DNA of 64,000 nt, taken from Branchiostoma floridae (taxonomy: Eukaryota; Chordata; Leptocardii; Amphioxiformes; Branchiostomatidae). How positions within the stretch are numbered: position 1 is the first letter of the stretch; each line of letters begins with the position of its first letter. The translations under genes and the position numbers were made by a program. Under the pieces are notes generated by a model. The model was not told the DNA's origin. It did not search any database and saw nothing but the letters and a program-made list of their open reading frames with translations. The DNA is taken from contig NC_049981.1 in assembly GCF_000003815.2 (NCBI RefSeq), positions 18,649,041 through 18,713,040 of the forward strand, in the 5' to 3' direction. This document shows, piece by piece, positions 13,731 to 26,887 of the stretch.

Positions 13731-16700
13731 ATGTGGCATTGTTCTTACCACGTGCACCTGTGCTATTTGTGCACGCTTGTTCTAGCGTTCTTCGGCTACA
13801 GTTGTAATGGTAGGATCTCGTGCCTCGATGGTGAAGGGGCTCCTGTGGACTGGTAAGTTTCCTTCTCAGAGCTTTAAGTCCATCATATGACATTAGGACA
13901 CTATAGGTAGATTTTCTACCATTTATTTACATGGTAAGTTGTATACCAGTTTTTAGCGGACGGAGGTTACAACATCATAGCACCTAATATACAGGCATGT
14001 TTTGGGACTGTGATTTTTCAAACCAGTGTACAGTATGTTTTTGTTTAGAACAGGAGGGTCTAGTTTCATGGTTTCAGAAACTTAGTAGACCTTCTGTAGC
14101 TTGCTTTGTATAGTTATAAACACCTGAAATACAAATTAATGACGGAAATATGCTGAAAATTGGTTGTACATGTCATTCACTTAAAGGTTTTGTTTTCAAC
14201 AATATTTTCAACTTAGAGGCCAAAACGATAACGTTACATAATGATCCTTAAATATTGTTCCACACTTTCAATATAAAGTACATTGTATGCAACATACAAT
14301 TCTGATACATTGTACTTTTAAGTAGTCTGAGAAGGTGTGTTAACAACACTTCAACAGTGAGAATTTTGAAGTGTTGAGTAATCATATCTTTTAAAAGTCA
14401 TGATCCACATTGTGACTAATCAATCATATCAATAAAGAAGAATTATAAATTGAGTGCTTTCCAGTTCTTGACTTTTTTGTTCAATCAGCTGTATCAGTTT
14501 CCATTGTTCTCATTTTGTATCCTGATGGAACCCCCACCCCCTAAAACTGCCCCAAGCTATCTCCATACAGTATCAATGAATTATGACTGAGAGGGATTCT
14601 TAGAATTATCTTATTTTCAATCTTTTGCACAAAAGGTTCATAATTTACAAGCTACCAGCCCTACCTGACCACAAGGACCCCCATGTGCAGAAAGGGCGGG
14701 GCCACCTGTACATGGATGCGCGGGTGGGGGAGTGGGTGTTACCTGGGACAGAGGTGGGCAGCAGAACAGGTGCGCTGGGACACACCCTCCAACAGATGTA
14801 CGACAATGTCAACAGGATGAGGCAGGTGAGATGAACTGTAGCACTAAATCACTGATATTAAGATTGACAACAAATATTCATTATGTAGGTACAAATGTGT
14901 TTCATATGCCAAATTGCAATTACTCAAAACAAACTGTGACAAAAGATAATAGGTGTTATCTGAAACGTTTGACTGTTTCCAAAATCATATCCAGTTGCTT
15001 GGGTAATTGCTATCTGGCATATCATATTACCTTGATGTCTAACCTTTATGGGTATAAATGTGTTTGTACATTTCGAAAATAGTCCATGTAAGTACCTCTG
15101 GTTGTGTAAAAAGAATTCTCCTATATCCCGTGTTTGTACTTCAGTTTTGTCTCATCTTGCTTACAGGAACAAGGTGCCTACTTTGCATACAATGACCAGT
15201 GGCCTGATGGACAGTTGCATAAGAACAAAGGACATGCCAAAGGTGGGATAGGAGGCAGAATTGTTCTACATGTGTTATGATTTTCACTGACTTTAAAAAT
15301 AATGAAAATAGCATAGACAACGGGGAACCGTATAAATCGTGACAATGGAGTGATGTCATTAATTGTTTAAAGGGTATGGTAATGATGGCAAGAAGGATTC
15401 ATTAGAATACAATGCCAGATGCTTTTTCTACATGTCACAGAAACATTCAGAGGAACAACTCAACAAGCAGCCATTTGGCTACTAGTCATTACTCTTTATT
15501 AAGTATCTATTTCTGTTTTATTTAACCAGGGTAGCCCATCTCTGTGGCTTGGCACTGCTTTCCAGTGGGGCCCTGAAAACCAGCCTTTTCTGCCAAAACA
15601 ACCAGAAGAATTAAATTATCACAAGAAAAGGGACAAATTGAGTTTTGATGCATAATGTTTCTATCTAGGTTCTATCTTGTTTGACAAGGAAGGAGGGTTC
15701 TGGTTGGTGCACAGTCTACCCAGATTCCCAAACTGGCTGGAAGAGTCATACACCTGGCCCGTGGGAGACTTCTCCACAAAGTATGCGCACATCTTCATGT
15801 GTGTCACATTTGAACACAACGCCTTTAGAATGATCGGTGAGTGACAATTGCACAACATGCGAGTGACATCTGCCGGTTGTCAGATTCCAGCAAGGTACAA
15901 GAGTCAAAGTATCTTATTCAATCTTATTCAAGTTTTATTGGGGCCTATCTTGGCCACATGCAGCCAAGAAGAGACTTATCCTCTCCTGGAAAGTCCTGGT
16001 ACAGACTGGCACTCAAGCCCACTTGGCTTCTCTCAACAACTTATGTTGAGTACTTGTGAACAACTGTATTAGTATGTCTTTTGTGGCCTTAAATGGTCAC
16101 ACATATTTGGAGACTTCCATGGCTATCCCTATAAAGCTTTGGCTGTCTAAGGCACAAAAAAGGTGGTTACTGCAATTACGGACACATGTTCATTATTCCA
16201 TCAGCCCCAGATAACATTATTGTATAATTCTGACTACATGGAATATTTGCTTCTTGTCATGGTTTTGCAGGAAAGCTTCTCATGTACATGGAGCCTGCAA
16301 TCTATGACGCAAGTCTCCCAGCATCCTTACAGGAGGACAACCCTTACTTCTCCCCGGCTATGGATGGGATTGGGCCTGCCGTGCCACCATGGAACAAGAA
16401 GGCACCTCTGCTGTCAAGAGGAGGGGTCGATGTTCTCAGTTTCACCAAGTCAAGCAACTACACAGAAGGTGTGGTAGTGGAACTGTAGTTTGTGGTCAGT
16501 TGGTGAAGAATGAAAGGTCATGTGTCTTTGTTGACATATATAAATAACAACAACAATACATCATTATCATCATATCTTGTACATATTCGAATGGTCTAGT
16601 CTAGTATTTAGCATAGTTATGTATGATGACGTTTCCTGTAAAAATGTTTCCGTATATTTCAGAGATGTACAAGGCATTTGTGGGGAAACATTTGGACTCT

Positions 16701-19342
16701 GACCTGGCTGTACAGTCCTGGAGGACATCAAAGGACAGCATACCCAACTGCTGCTGGAAACCAAAGGTAGGCCTTTTTTGTGACTAGAACACAAGCAACC
16801 CCACCTAATATTAACCTCCCTGAGGCTTAAACCAATAACCCAATATATATAAATTTGGTGCCTAGTGGCAACCTCAGCAGGTTGAAAGTTAAAGCAAATT
16901 GCCAATGTCATTTGTTTACTAAGGTGTAAAAAAAATCAAAAGATGCATGACAAAGAAATGGAAACTGTTTATGTTACGACACATTACAACTATGAACCTG
17001 TGGCAAGTGTTTTACAGTACGAAACTGTGCACATATTTTCCATCCCATCTGTTGTAGGTAAAGAATGTGAAGAAACTGAAGCTCCCTTATGATGTGGAGT
17101 TTGCATCCAGCAAGGACAAGTCCAAGTGGGCAGTAACTACGGGGGGCAAGAGCAAGTGGACCTGTATCGGCGACTTGGACAGACAGGTATGCTACATAGG
17201 TTATCCTGAAGATAAAGTTGAATTAATGTTAGCTTGCAGTTGGCTACATTAGTAAAGGGGACAGGTTCATATTTTGTTCAATGGTTATTCATATATAACA
17301 AGTTTGATCCTCTATAAAGGTAATCTCATGAGGTTATCAATGCAGGGCAAATGTGTGGCCATTGGTTTCCCTACAGGAGTGTGTATCGATACATCAGGAC
17401 CTAGGATATTGTGTTTCAGTACTAGGTGCAGTGTGTGACGGTAGTTCAGAATCAGTGACTGCTTGATATGGTTGTTCAACATCAGGGGCAGTGTGTGATG
17501 GTATTTCAGCACCAAGGACAGTGTGTGATGGTAGTTCAGCAACAGGGACAGCATGTGATGGTAGTTCAGCACCAGGGAGTGTGTGATTGTAGTTCAGCAC
17601 CAGGGACAATGTGTGATGGATGTTCAGCATCAGAGAAAGTGTGGGATGGTAGTTCAGTACCAAGGACAGTGTGTGATGGAAGTTCAGCACCAGGAAGTGT
17701 GGGATGATAGTTCAGTACAAAGGACAGTGCATGAGAGTAGTTCAGCACAAGGGACAGTGTGTGAAGGTAGTTCAGCACCAGGGACAGTGTGTGATGGTAG
17801 TTCAGCACCAGGGACAATGTGTGATGGAAGTTCAGCACCAGGGACAGTGTGTGAAGGTAGTTCAGCACCAGGGACAGTGTGTGATGGTAGTTCTGTACCA
17901 GGGACAGTGTGTGATGGAAGTTCAGCACCAGGGACAGTGTCTGATGGTAGTTCAGCACCAGGGACAGTGTGTGATGGTAGTTCAGCACCAGGGACAGTGT
18001 GTGATGGAAGCTCAGCACCAGGGAGTGTGGGATGGTAGTTCAGTACAAAGGACAGTGCGTGAGAGTAGTTCAGCACAAGGGACAGTCCGTGATGGTAGTT
18101 CAGCACCAGGGACAATGTATGATGGTAGTTCAGCAACAGGGACAGTATGTGATGGTAGTTCAGCACCAGGGACAATGTATGATGGTAGTTCAGCAACAGG
18201 GACAGTGTGTGATGGAAGTTCAGCACCAGGGAGTGTGGGATGGTAGTTCAGTACAAAGGACAGTGCGTGAGAGTAGTTCAGCACCAGGGACAGTGTGTGA
18301 TGGTAGTTCAGCACCAGGGACAATGTGTGATGGAAGTTCAGCACCAGGGACAGTGTGTGAAGGTAGTTCAGCACCAGGGACAGTGTGTGATGGTAGTTCT
18401 GTACCAGGGACAGTGTGTGATGGAAGTTCAGCACCAGGGACAGTGTCTGATGGTAGTTCAGCACCAGGGACAGTGTGTGATGGTAGTTCAGCACCAGGGA
18501 CAGTGTGTGATGGAAGCTCAGCACCAGGGAGTGTGGGATGGTAGTTCAGTACAAAGGACAGTGCGTGAGAGTAGTTCAGCACAAGGGACAGTATGTGATG
18601 GTAGTTCAGCACCAGGGACAATGTATGATGGTAGTTCAGCAACAGGGACAGTGTGTGATGGAAGTTCAGCACCAGGGAGTGTGGGATGGTAGTTCACTAC
18701 AAAGGACAGTGTGTGATGGATGTTCAGCATCAGAGACAGTGTGTGATGGTAGTTCAGCACCAGGGACAATGTGTGATGATAGTTCAGCACCAGGGACAGT
18801 GTGTGATGGAAGTTCAGCACCAGGGAGTGTTGGATGGTAGTTCAGTACAAAGGACAGTGCGTGAGAGTAGTTTAGCACAAGGGAGTGTGTGATGGTAGTT
18901 CAGCACCAGGGACAGTGTGTGATGGTAGTTCAGCACCAGGGACAGTGTGTGATGGAAGTTCAGCACCGGGGAGTGTGGGATGGTAGTTCAGTACAATGGA
19001 CATTGCGTGAGAGTAGTTCAGCACAAGGGACAGTGTGTGATGGTAGTTCAGCACCAGGGACAAGTATAGTGTGCAATGGTAATTGATTGTCAAGGTGAAT
19101 CATGTTCCACCTACCTTTTTCAGTCAGTCATGCTGATTTCAGTTCAATCACTTAGCATCAAATGCATGTTCTCTGTATTGATACAAATTTTTTCTGTGTA
19201 CTTCCATGTTCAGGAGCGCGAGATGAAGCGAGGAGGTGGAACGCTGTGTCTGAAGGTTCCAGGTGTCTGGCAGGCTTTTACTTCTGCAGTAGCAGACACA
19301 GAGAAGTGCAAAAAAACTATCGACAAAAAGACGGAATTGTGA
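13731..19342 (+). CDS. DNASE2: Deoxyribonuclease II (lysosomal acid DNase), 8 exons
   Basis: Coding exons are 13731-13852, 14636-14825, 15167-15242, 15669-15836, 16271-16468, 16663-16766, 17058-17186 and 19214-19342. They sum to 1,116 nt (371 residues; human DNase II has 360). All junctions are GT-AG and keep phase. The start Met has an in-frame TGA two codons upstream and is followed by a hydrophobic segment (LCYLCTLVLAFFG), a signal peptide. Family signatures in order are PVDWFIIYKLPAL at the first junction, YNDQWPDG, GHAKG (residues 126-130, first HxK motif), GGFWLVHSLPRFP (138-150, with the third active-site His at 144), SKWAVT, WTCIGDLDRQ and RGGGTLC. DNase II cuts double-stranded DNA in lysosomes during clearance of engulfed or apoptotic DNA. 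Odd point: the second motif, HSK in human, reads KSK here (K307, codon 17118-17120), so catalysis may be lost. The last intron holds a large minisatellite. Confidence 0.93.
17411..19080. repeat. 30-bp minisatellite with higher-order structure, in DNase II intron 7
   Basis: About 55 tandem units, each containing TAGTTCAGCACCAGGGACAG followed by TGTGTGATGG. Most are 30 bp. A shortened 26-bp junction type ends GGGAGTGTGGGATGG and is followed by TAGTTCAGTACAAAGG. Junctions start near 17,693, 18,021, 18,229, 18,527, 18,677, 18,825 and 18,968. Long blocks repeat almost identically at an offset of 506 bp (the rare TTCTGTACC variant is at 17,891 and 18,397). Because 30 is divisible by three, several frames stay open on both strands; these are not genes. 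The array fills most of the 2,027-base intron 17,187-19,213. Confidence 0.95.
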
Positions 19343-19409: not shown

Positions 19410-19415
19410 AATAAA
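19410..19415 (+). terminator. Polyadenylation signal of the DNase II gene
   Basis: AATAAA lies 68 bases after the TGA stop of the DNase II gene, a normal position for a poly(A) signal in a short 3' UTR. Confidence 0.7.
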
Positions 19416-20996: not shown

Positions 20997-23900
20997 TCAG
21001 TTCCCATATTTCTTCTTATCCATCTCAATCTCTTTTTTACGTTGGAGGATGGCAGCGTTCTTTTGCTGGATGAGGCGAATGCGAGCGTCCAATTCGCTTT
21101 CGTCTGGTCGGACTTCCAGGTCTGGTGCTGGCTTCTTGGATGAAGATGGAGCAGGAGACTGTGGGAGTGAAAGTATATCATATGTTAGTCACCACCTTCC
21201 ATCAGTAACTCAACAACCACAAGATCCTCTATCAGATCATAGCTGGAGAGATAGGCTAGGAAAAGCTAGTGTATAAAGTAACAAACTGCCAGACCCACAT
21301 TCTTTGACTTTGACGTGGAGAAACTAAAGAAAAGCATAATTTTAAATGCAGCGCTTTTATCTACTCAAGAAAATAAAAGTTTTGACTGTTTGCAAAGAAA
21401 TTGTCACCTTTGCTTTATATATCCTAATTATTACCTTCACCAAATTGAAAAGATGGTTGATGTTTTAGGAGCAGTTTGCCTAGAGAATCTGTGAATGGAT
21501 CCTTACAATACTTGATCTTTGGGTTGTGGTCTGGAAAAATAAAGCAAAAGTTTGAAAATGGGCCCCCTAACGGTTTTCAGTGGTAGTGGAGCTATTGGCA
21601 ACAAAGATTCTTGCCTGTTTCCTAGCAGTAGTGGCGGCGTCCAGGTCTCGTTGGACATCCTGTTTGATTTTGATCTGTATTTGCTGCCTGGATACCGCTT
21701 GTTGGGGAGCCTGTCTCTGCACTTTGGACTGCAGGCCTAGTCGCTCATGGATGGACTTCCTTTTGACAGGAGCATCTTCTGATGGATCAGGGGTGGTACT
21801 CACTGTGGGACAGCAGGAGGGTCTGCAGTTAGATCTAGATCATGAAATTAAGGCTTGAACAACTTGATCATGAAATTAAGGCTTAAACAACTTTTTTATA
21901 TGAGGAGATACGTGTCCCAAGAAACTTGTTGGGAATGTTTCATGAAAATAATATCAATCCAATTCAGCTCACTGAAAATAGCTCACTGAAGCTATTCTAC
22001 CACTGGTGGTGACATAGAAGATAGATGCTACCGGGTATATGATTGAACAGTATTTTACAGTTTCATTGTACTGGGGAAATTACTTCAGCTTTTTTTTGAC
22101 ATGCAAAATGAACAGTGGACCATGGCTTGTCCTGTCTTCAGCACTGCTACTCTGTTCGGAATTGTGCATGTCGGGTAAGACTAAGAGACACAGCCAGATT
22201 CAAACTCGCGGCCTCCAGTTCCAAAGGCAGGGCCGCTAACCACTGAGTAATTGCATCACATAAGTCTTGTTGTTAGAAGGGGAGGAATAATTCAACACTA
22301 GACGAAGGAACCGGCCCTTACCTTCATCACTTGTGATAGATATCTTCCTCTTCACGCCTCTTGCCTTCTTCTTTTTCCTCCCCTCCTCCTCACCACCACT
22401 ACCACCTACAGTTTTTCTCTGCAAAATCCTGACCCTCAAGTCAGACCCATCGATGGTATCAGCTCCCTCGGTGTCTGCTAGAACAATTCTCTTCACCTGT
22501 ACTTTTCTCTTCACTGCCTTGACTGCCTTCACCGCAGGGTTTTGTCTCTCCGAGTCCTCAACAATTTCCCGTTTGTCCAGCATGGGCTCTGGAGAAATGT
22601 TACGTTTTGGTGCCAGAGACTTAGGGGGAGAAATGTTGATGGAAAGCAAAGATTTTATTTTGGGCTGCCCACCATTCCCCTCTGATGAAGAGCCAGACTT
22701 GGACTCCTTTTCTGGTCTAAATGTTTTCTGAATTTTCTTAGGTGGGGAGTGAGGGACTCTGTCTGCCTTATCAGGTGTGGCTACTTTCCTCTTCACTTCT
22801 GTCTTGTCCCTGTCTCTATTACTGTGCCGTGTTTCCTGAGAGTTAATTGGAGAGTGCCTGTGTGTCTTGCGCCTGTCCCTGTGCCTATCTCGTGTCCGTT
22901 CGCCCCGGTCACGACGGAAACCAGATCTAAGCGGTCCATTCCTGTCCCTGTCCTCTCTCCTCCTGTCCCAAGGATCCAGGCTATCAGGGATATTTGTGCG
23001 TACTTGAGTTGTCCTTAACAGGCCCAACCCTCTACCTTCTTTACTGCCCTCTCCAACATCTTTCTTAGTCTGCCTGAACCTGGATTCTTCAGTTTCAGAC
23101 TCACTTTCACTGTCACTGAGCATGGAAGATGAACTTGATCCAGCACTCTCTGACCTCACGGAAAACCTCCTTGTCTCTTTCTTGGGTTTATCTTTACTTA
23201 CTTTTTTCCTATCTTTTTCCACTGGTGAAACTTTGATGCTCACCGAATCAAGACCACCCGTCTTTTCTACTATGCCCTGAAGTGAGACTTTCTTTCTTTC
23301 AAGTTTTGCCTCCCTGCCCTCAAATTTCCTCTTCCTTGCCTCTAACTTCTCATCTGTTGGCTTTTTCACATCTCTAAAGGGAGATGCTTTATCCTCAGTT
23401 CTGTCCGGTGTAACTCTGAGTGTTTTTTCTCCCTTTTCCAAGTTATTTCTATTGTGCCTTTCCCCATGCCTTGAAGGCAGACCCCTTCTTTCTGTCTGCC
23501 TTTTTGATTCCCTGACCTTTGGCTTCTGTGATGTCCTGTCAAGATTACGTTCTGGGGAAAGCGCATTTCTCCTGTAAGCAGCCGGTAAATGCCTACTTCT
23601 GTGTGCATCTCTTCCTCCATGTCTTGAACTTGAGTCAGATTTCTCTGACCTACCCTTGGCTACCTTTCTTGGTGGAGACTGAGATCTACTCCTCAATCTT
23701 TTTCTTGACCTAGACAGTGACCTAGAAGGCCTAGATTTTGAGAGAGATCTACCTCTCTTTGATCTCAGTTGAGATCCTGGTCTATCCAAGAGTCCTTTTT
23801 TCGGTGACTTGGATCTGTTCCTTGGAAGTCGAACTGGTGACTTTGATCTGTTTCCAGAAAGGGGAACAGGTGACTGGGATCTACGCCTCGCTACTCTGTG

Positions 23901-26887
23901 TGGAGACTGTGAAACTTTCCTTCCTATACTCCTCGACCTAGATCTGGAAGATGAAGGTCTTCTACTATATCTTTCCCTGGACAATGACCTTGTCTTCCTC
24001 TGCTTAGTAGGAGTTGGTGATCTTGACAGTGACCTTGATCTAGAGCGAGACTTAGAGGTAGACCTTGATGATGATCCATCAGAGCTCGTAGTAGTGAATG
24101 AGACAGAGCTCTTGGACCTTTCACTTGGACTTCTTTCTGGAGAAGATGGTCTACTTTCTGGAGATGGACTTCTACTGGTTGAATTAGATCCTGATGTGGA
24201 TGATGCACGAGATTCTGGCCTATCTTGAGTGTCCACTTTTTCTGTCTCTTGTTTTGAGGAGGGAGAATCCTCAACCTTGCCATTAAATGGCTCTCCTTTA
24301 TTCTGCTCCAACTTTTCATGTTCCGTATCTTTTGAAGAAGTATCCTTCTCTACAAGAGCATCATTTTCTGCTCTGATCTCAACTTTGGTTTCCTCCTTTT
24401 TGTCTAAGTCTGGTGACTTTTCCTCAATGAATCTGGTACCTGAAACATCAATCTCTTCTGCAACATCCTTAGTGTCCTTGTTTTCCTCTTCATTTCCATC
24501 TTTTGTGTTACATTCTACTTCATCTGAACTTTTCTCAACATTTTTTTCAGCATCAGAAACATCTCTGTTTTCCTCTTTTCCAGATTCAGAACTGCTGTCT
24601 ATGTGGTTAACTTCCTTCTCTTCCTCTTTTTCTGATTCAGAACTACTGCTTTCTTTGAGGTCTACTTCCTCCTCTTCCTCTTCAGAACTACTTGAACTTG
24701 ACCTTCCTAGAATTTCCTCCTCTGAGTCAGAATCGCTGTCAAACCTACTAAACTTGTCATTGCGCTTGGTTGGCGTGGATGACCGCCCTTCATTCGGAAG
24801 CACCTTCCTGTCAATCCTAGGCACACGTCCCCGCCCACCTCTGGTTGCAGGCGGCCCACCCATGGGGAGTGGGAGGTCATTCTCTGAGTCTTCTTGGACG
24901 ATGTTGATAGCAATTAGATTGCTTCTCTTTGGGTGCCTGCGATGACTGGGGAAGCCTGCCTGGTTCTGGGGAATTGGTGGGGGAACCTGTGATGAAGTGA
25001 GTGGTCGTATAGATTGATATGAGTATAAACAATGGCTGTATAGAAACAAAAATACAGAAATGTTTGAAATACTCGCTTATCTAAACCACTTAATCCATTC
25101 GCTATGTCACACACTTACCAATGTAACAAATTCTTCAAAAATCACTTTTGAAGAATGTTGCCATGTCCAATATCAAACAATGAATAAATGACTGAAGTAA
25201 AGTTTGTTATTGTGTCTTGTGACAAAGTCATCCATCCCATTTGGGTTTATAAGGGCTATTAGGGAAGACCTGCACGCCCTAAATTTACAGACTGCCAACC
25301 CAAAAGACAGTGACTGCTGGTGGGCTGCCATCAAGCCTCCATATCTACTCTATGTGCAAGAATGTCTAACCCTCGCATGACGGTGAGTGAGTGACTAAAG
25401 TTCTATGTAGTAAAAATAGTGATCAATAGCTTGTTTTACCTGTGTCGGACCAGTTGGAGGGACATGGGATTGTACCAAATTCCCTGGTTTGGACTTGGCT
25501 TTGAGTGACTGCAGCGCTGCAAGACGAAGAGCTTCCAAGTCCTCCTCATCATCATTATCATCACTGTCTTCACCAGTGACGGCAGGGGAATCTTCGCTCT
25601 GCTGAAAAACAGAAACAAGCAATCAATTACTTGTTTTTCCATAGAATTATCGTAGAGTGTAAAGTGTAACCACCAAGCACTACACAGGAGCATCCTCATA
25701 ACATAGACTTAAACAATGCTTACAGCTAGATGTGTGAAGGACACATGAGATGGGTGATGCAGTGTAATATAATCAGCTGCACCACAAAGCTGGTGTGTAA
25801 CACCAAAGAACAGTCATAGTGGATTATGAAGAAACAGTTACTGTATCATACAGAATCATGGATTTCTGCCTTCTATACTGCATTGTAACTCTTCTAGTTG
25901 CACTGGAAAAAACACAGCAGCACTGACAATGTACTAGTATGGCAAAGCTACATTGTCTGTGTGTTTCTAAGATTCCCACTAACTATGCATAAATATAATG
26001 GGATTCTCACACACCCATGCAAACAGACAAGTAGAAAAGCTCAAAACAATAGTTTCAAAATAAGTGCTTCAATGCACAGTTGGATGTACATGGGCAAATC
26101 AAATCATTGTCATGCAGGTTTCAGTTTCACTTACAGTTTTAAGTGAGGCCAGCACAGCTGTACGAAGGGACTGCAAGTCTTCTTCCTGTAATGAGAAATT
26201 TAGACATCACAACAAACATCAAACATCCTGGAGGTAAGGATGCCTGAATACAGCTAATTAAATTTCAGGTTCTTTTCTCAGCTGCAGAGAAGAAAAGTAA
26301 TAATTTTTTACAAATAAGTGTTATGCAAGTATTTATTTCTAAAGTATGTTGTCTGGATAAAAAAACTGATATATAGGCAAGATTAAAGGGTATAGGAGAA
26401 AAGGTCTACGCGCACACACTGAAAGGAAAAAGCACAACGTTGTCAACATAATAATTTTGGGGTGCAACTTTTCGAGGCCACGTGACTACAACGCAAAATA
26501 TTTAGACGAGGACAACAACAACAACATGCTGCAGTTTATCTGTATTGTTCGACAGTTGGAACGGGTGGAACACATCAGTTTCATTCATATCACATTGTAC
26601 TTGTAAGCAAATCTACGTAATACAAATACAACGACGTATTTGACTGACAAGGGGCCAAATTTTGACACAGGCAGCTAAGATCTTCCATATTCTGCCAAAC
26701 TTCGTATGAATTTATCAAAGGAAACAAAACAAAGTTGATAGAAAAAGTGGTATCAACCAAGTCCCTGTATTCCTCTGACTCTGTATGTGCTACATATAAG
26801 TCCTAAAGGATGGAAACTGCAGCTAGATAAAGAGAAAATATGAGAAATTCGCGGGACATTTCCTACCTCGACGTCCGACGCCATCAT
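20997..26887 (-). CDS. Large Ser/Arg-rich nuclear protein, 6 exons, unrecognised family
   Basis: Coding exons in transcript order are 26887-26867, 26185-26135, 25601-25440, 24986-22322, 21802-21615 and 21158-20997. They total 3,249 nt (1,082 residues) and stay in phase throughout. The first coding segment reads MMASDVE. Exon 2 (EEDLQSLRTAVLASLK) and exon 3 (EEDLEALRLAALQSLK) carry two copies of one short helical motif. The 888-codon exon 4 has an acidic Ser/Glu region (roughly 155-300), then RS and SP dipeptides with many basic residues (roughly 330-560), and further RD/RH-rich sequence. Exon 5 has KRKSIHERLGLQSK. The C-terminus is a short predicted coil with AILQRKKEIEMDKKK. RS composition and basic tracts suggest a nuclear mRNA-processing protein; that is inference. 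The donor of intron 5 is GC rather than GT. It is head to head with MELK. Confidence 0.85.
22090..22255 (-). repeat. Possible tRNA-derived SINE fragment in an intron of the RS gene
   Basis: On the minus strand the sequence starting at 22,255 reads GTGATGCAATTACTCAGTGG, then a tRNA-like middle and GAGTTTGAATCTGG, which resembles a pol III B box. It lies between exons 4 and 5 of the RS gene. There is no proper acceptor stem, so this is not a functional tRNA. The lower boundary is a guess. Confidence 0.4.

Follow-up and report, generated by a model that had tools for sequence, protein, structure and literature searches.

The window, a stretch of 64,000 nucleotides of lancelet DNA (C3:18649041-18713040), carries on its + strand a complete DNase II gene that extends from 13731 to 19342 and encodes 371 residues in eight exons. 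Its parts, in window coordinates, are:

13731..13852, + strand: exon 1, with the start codon, a hydrophobic N-terminus and Cys31; spliced in frame with a GT donor
14636..14825, + strand: exon 2, with AG/GT ends and in frame; matches exons 2-3 of the paralogue on contig C8
15167..15242, + strand: exon 3, with the first HxK motif, GHAK, kept (His127 and Lys129)
15669..15836, + strand: exon 4, with His144 (the third catalytic histidine, kept) and Cys174
16271..16468, + strand: exon 5, with the N-glycosylation sequon N248-Y-T, the only one in the protein
16663..16766, + strand: exon 6, with Cys282
17058..17186, + strand: exon 7, with the second half-site, D-K307-S-K309-W ... G-D-L-D327-R, and Cys322
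17118..17120, + strand: codon AAG (Lys307), which replaces the attacking histidine of the second motif
17178..17180, + strand: codon of Asp327, in place of an invariant asparagine (coordinates derived from the exon 7 frame)
19214..19342, + strand: exon 8, with Cys341, Cys361 and the stop codon

All seven introns have GT...AG ends, there are no internal stops in the 371-residue frame, and the protein scores 324.2 bits against Pfam PF03265 (cut-off 23), with residues 30-361 covering profile positions 1-326 of 326. The description of the gene in an earlier note, as having eight exons with intact splice sites and as no obvious pseudogene, is therefore upheld. The N-terminus encoded by exon 1 looks signal-peptide-like by eye. 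The six cysteines (31, 174, 282, 322, 341 and 361) align with those of the C8 paralogue and are presumably bonded; three conserved cysteine pairs are described for the family (PMC9208542). An AATAAA lies at 19410. Intron 7 consists mostly of a minisatellite (17415-19062), which can be read as about 55 copies of a 30-base unit or, alternatively, as about 11 copies of a 148-base unit.

The first half-site of the protein is of the usual kind and the second is not. The first HxK motif and the third histidine are kept (His127, Lys129 and His144), as the earlier note had stated, and so is Lys309 of the second motif. However, codon 307 (17118-17120) is an in-frame AAG, so that the second HxK motif lacks its histidine, and a further change in this half-site, which the earlier note lacked, puts Asp327 at the place of its asparagine. 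The second half-site thus reads K-K-D rather than the usual H-K-N. A PDB sequence search (E up to 0.1) found one distinct chain, the bacterial DNase II of 5i3e/5unb, presumably from Burkholderia thailandensis, which matches the window protein over residues 29-352 with an E of 3.2e-27. At the two altered places this chain reads DHAKW and GDINR, against DKSKW and GDLDR in the window gene, and the search alignment pairs Lys307 with the histidine of its QDHAKW. The alignment with an amphioxus paralogue that the earlier note had proposed has the same outcome: the C8 protein has DHSKW, and its His306 stands opposite Lys307.

An alignment that brings some other histidine of the protein into the catalytic position was sought and none was found; there is no histidine past residue 261, and therefore no realignment can supply one. 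A register set by the KSKW that follows (17145-17159) was rejected, since that stretch too is without a histidine. Nor does the window seem to hold a mutually exclusive exon with DHSKW, as neither tblastn with the paralogue nor a pattern search revealed one: tblastn gave a single match to the exon 7 region within the window, and of the two matches from a six-frame search of the window for HSKW-like words neither is like exon 7. As a separate observation, the stretches 17115-17129 (DKSKW) and 17145-17159 (GKSKW) are nearly identical at a distance of 30 bases; the paralogue lacks the second KSK, and one stretch may have templated the other.

The base call at 17118-17120 rests on one assembly, and a sequence or assembly error, or an allele private to the sequenced animal, would also explain the lysine. 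Such an explanation is very improbable. The change from a histidine codon to AAG takes two bases, so that one wrong base would not account for it, a second invariant residue of exon 7 is changed as well, and no nearby copy of the window gene was seen among the best candidates of the protein search.

How constant the altered positions are elsewhere in the family can be judged from 60 bacterial homologues, confirmed from 128 stretches. The search patterns, which span window residues 38-46 and 108-116, were confined to the protein's first half, because the second motif should not choose the rows. An earlier homologue scan of contigs had yielded 71 stretches that matched patterns, none of which was confirmed, and a plasmid search gave one Burkholderia record among the matches listed. 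Two of the 60 rows (L070 and L071) are without a residue at the second motif, and counts there refer to the remaining 58, which are not independent, 28 of them being Bacteroidota, with two near-copies. The Lys307 column has histidine, and column 309 lysine, in 58/58 of the bacterial rows that reach there, and the Asp327 column has asparagine in 58/58 and in C8. In the first half-site, the His127 and Lys129 columns have the same residue in 59/60 rows, with a gap in one, and the His144 column has histidine in 57/60, glutamine in two and a gap in one. When the six residues are taken jointly, the bacterial site is H-K-H-H-K-N in 56 of the 58 rows and H-K-Q-H-K-N in 2; C8 has H-K-H-H-K-N and the window gene H-K-H-K-K-D. 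The replacement of the catalytic histidine by Lys307, as claimed in the earlier note, is thus borne out by the reading frame, by 5i3e/5unb, by C8 and by every bacterial row that reaches the motif.

The invariant asparagine is presumably the partner residue of the second half-site. This is suggested by its spacing from the histidine (18-27 residues in bacteria and 20 in both lancelet genes), by its invariance, by the H, K, H/N triads described for the half-sites of DNase2 (PMC9208542) and by the H-K-N site of PLD3 (PMC10783504). In the same stretch of the C8 protein, GGLNR, there is a departure of another kind: at the column of C8 Gly324 (exon 8) the window gene, like 58/58 bacterial rows, has aspartate.

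Family and protein searches of the genome (513,431,437 bases in 431 contigs), with the best candidates scored, place DNase II at a minimum of two sites, C3 and C8. The protein search listed 13 matches, eight in the window gene, four in the C8 gene and one on C12; the last, considered as a further copy, is at chance level (E 4.76). The C8 gene model has nine exons and 365 residues, its exon 2 ending at the frame-keeping one of more than one possible donor, and its protein is 41% identical to that of the window. The two genes have intron phases in common, C8 having one extra intron within the stretch of window exon 2, and because of these shared phases the pair most likely arose by duplication of DNA rather than by retrocopying. 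A fragment in the intron that precedes exon 5 of the C8 gene (L008 4677-4715; ECRFWLAHSTPKF) appears to be a decayed copy of a portion of this exon.

Two uricase matches lie on the minus strand at C8:20454120-20457529, one of them containing a stop within the match; they are about 3 kb upstream of the start codon of the C8 DNase II gene and head-to-head with it. The placing of DNase2b beside Uox has been described as old, conserved and ancestral, with one DNase2 credited to lancelets (PMC9208542, the only paper to treat lancelet DNase II among the literature matches listed). The window gene belongs to the same family and shares intron phases with the C8 copy. However, it lies on another contig, lacks the second catalytic histidine and the asparagine, and is not head-to-head with urate oxidase: a genome-wide search showed no uricase near it among the best candidates scored. 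By position it is therefore not the DNase2b orthologue; it is an additional, unlinked paralogue outside the lancelet count given in PMC9208542.

What the altered half-site would mean for catalysis can be considered in the light of related enzymes. In pig DNase II, His297 is described as attacking the phosphorus, whilst His115 serves as proton donor and later activates water (PMC11430429), and in human PLD3 the second-motif His416 is the postulated attacker (PMC10783504). By alignment, Lys307 stands at the position of the attacking histidine of DNase II. At lysosomal pH a lysine would be expected to carry a charge and to attack poorly. With Lys307 in place of the attacker, no phospho-histidine intermediate would be expected to form and ordinary acid DNase activity, which in catalytic DNase II is endonucleolytic and independent of metal, would be lost. 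Asp327 would place a negative charge where the asparagine helps to hold the phosphate, or it might pair with Lys307; in PLD3, the substitution N432A, of an asparagine at the like place of the motif, is reported to abolish activity completely (PMC10783504).

Loss of the attacker alone is no proof of inactivity, since human TDP1 without its attacking histidine keeps a reduced activity that has been ascribed to an adjacent histidine; the attacker in that enzyme is His263 and the acid/base is His493 (PMC5349943). In the window protein there is no histidine beside Lys307 in the sequence. The H493R form of TDP1 in SCAN1 resembles the window protein in being a two-HxK nuclease in which one catalytic histidine has become a basic residue, but in that case it is the acid/base that has changed, with stabilisation of the covalent complex (PMC5349943), whereas the second histidine of DNase II is the described attacker. 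On these grounds, ordinary catalysis by the window protein seems unlikely, and a binding role seems possible.

The loss itself has a precedent, down to the residue, in Trichinella. In DNase II-like members of T. spiralis the active histidine of DHSKW is replaced by lysine or serine, and two semi-quantitative methods showed TsDNase II-7 to be without DNase activity (PMC10249883). Of 125 predicted Trichinella genes only one is described as having the C-terminal motif, and a cloned relative with both motifs is active (PMC4148230). The window gene is like the inactive nematode proteins in having lost the histidine of DHSKW and kept the family domain, a likeness at the level of the family. The Trichinella proteins form an excretory-secretory family of about 125 members in a nematode, in contrast to the one extra gene of the lancelet. 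Thus, whilst the change of this histidine to lysine is already known, its occurrence in a chordate that also has a canonical sister gene, the change of asparagine to aspartate and the second lancelet DNase II are new here.

It is unlikely that the protein is an altered but active enzyme, either with His127 as attacker or with the first half-sites of two chains paired. The first half-site is intact, a one-half DNase2b isoform has been proposed to work as a homodimer (PMC9208542), and the roles of the motifs can differ between families, as the attacker His263 and the acid/base His493 of TDP1 illustrate (PMC5349943). Against this, the second half is changed at both its histidine and its asparagine, the altered Trichinella protein that was assayed is inactive (PMC10249883), and the literature searched, so far as its text was available, describes no active DNase II with such a site.

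The two lancelet genes have diverged far. By the NG86 method, over 348 codons, dN is 0.61 and dS is 3.5, which is saturated; 21/59 fourfold sites match. The pairwise ratio averages both lineages and says nothing on constraint after the loss of the histidine. GC3 is 0.62 in the window gene and 0.64 in C8; introns 1-6 of the window gene, with intron 7 left out, have a GC content of 0.36. Together, the intact frame and splice sites, the six cysteines, a dN far below the saturated dS and the high GC3 argue that the gene has been kept as a protein-coding one for a long time. A tree of 60 rows (the 58 bacteria, without L070 and L071, and the two lancelet genes), made by a quick search and with placements unsure on account of long branches, gives an end branch of 1.90 to the window gene and of 0.99 to C8. 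Identity to the bacterial rows is lower for the window protein than for C8 in 58/58 comparisons (means 0.27 and 0.31), although the rows are not independent. On these measures the window gene, the second paralogue, has evolved faster than C8.

Of the 27 columns that are invariant in the 58 bacteria, the window gene keeps 18 and C8 keeps 22; invariance at four of the 27 (Asp40, Asn113, Asp114 and Glu at 115) is in part made by the selection of rows, as these lie within the search patterns. Those changed in the window gene but kept in C8 are at Gln115, His170, Val240, Glu252, Lys307 and Asp327. Two of the five invariant catalytic columns are among the 9/27 lost overall (hypergeometric P 0.55). 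The losses therefore show no concentration at the catalytic positions, and this favours a gene released from its enzymatic constraint rather than one with a retuned active site.

Such a pattern raises the possibility that the gene is a relaxed duplicate with no function of its own, heading to become a pseudogene with its frame still unbroken. The branch about twice as long as that of the paralogue and the keeping of 18 rather than 22 of the 27 columns would also fit plain relaxation, as would losses spread beyond the catalytic columns and the uniformly lower identity, in non-independent comparisons, to bacteria. This is a reading of some weight, though a rather unlikely one, since the splice sites, the full frame, the six cysteines and a high GC3 have stayed intact despite synonymous sites saturated relative to C8.

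The better reading, and a fairly probable one, is that the window gene is a second paralogue whose fold is maintained, a pseudo-nuclease that lacks the attacking histidine and has lost ordinary acid DNase activity. The maintained fold is seen in the whole PF03265 domain, the six conserved cysteines and the hydrophobic N-terminus, whilst the second half-site has changed from His-Lys-Asn to Lys-Lys-Asp. His127, Lys129, His144 and Lys309, joined now by Lys307, could retain the ability to hold phosphate, and the protein might then be a secreted or endolysosomal DNA-binding pseudo-nuclease, with the cutting left to the C8 gene. Of the two proposals of the earlier note, a catalytically dead paralogue or a changed mechanism, the former is thus the best reading, but the binding or decoy role attached to it is hypothetical. 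The single sequon of the window protein, against four in C8, does not help the case for a lysosomal role.

More speculatively, Lys-Lys-Asp could be a selected state. Lys307 and Asp327 would then form a pair spanning the pocket, and DNA or RNA would be bound at acid pH and not released, perhaps by a slow covalent attachment to His127 as in the TDP1 mutants. In chordate innate immunity, or in digestion in the gut, such a protein might act as a receptor or carrier for nucleic acids. This is a doubtful proposal.

The lancelet repertoire, described as having one DNase II, gains a second through this gene, which also provides a chordate case of the Trichinella type of active-site loss, with the animal's own canonical sister gene as a built-in control. 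Should a function come to light, it would show how a nuclease family can yield nucleic-acid binders; if there is none, the gene would be a clear case of a relaxed duplicate.

Elsewhere in the window, Pfam searches of nine open frames gave no match. An open frame of 946 residues on the - strand (22239-25076), likewise without a Pfam match at E 0.001, is rich in serine and arginine and has acidic runs, and by eye it is like a splicing-associated RS protein.
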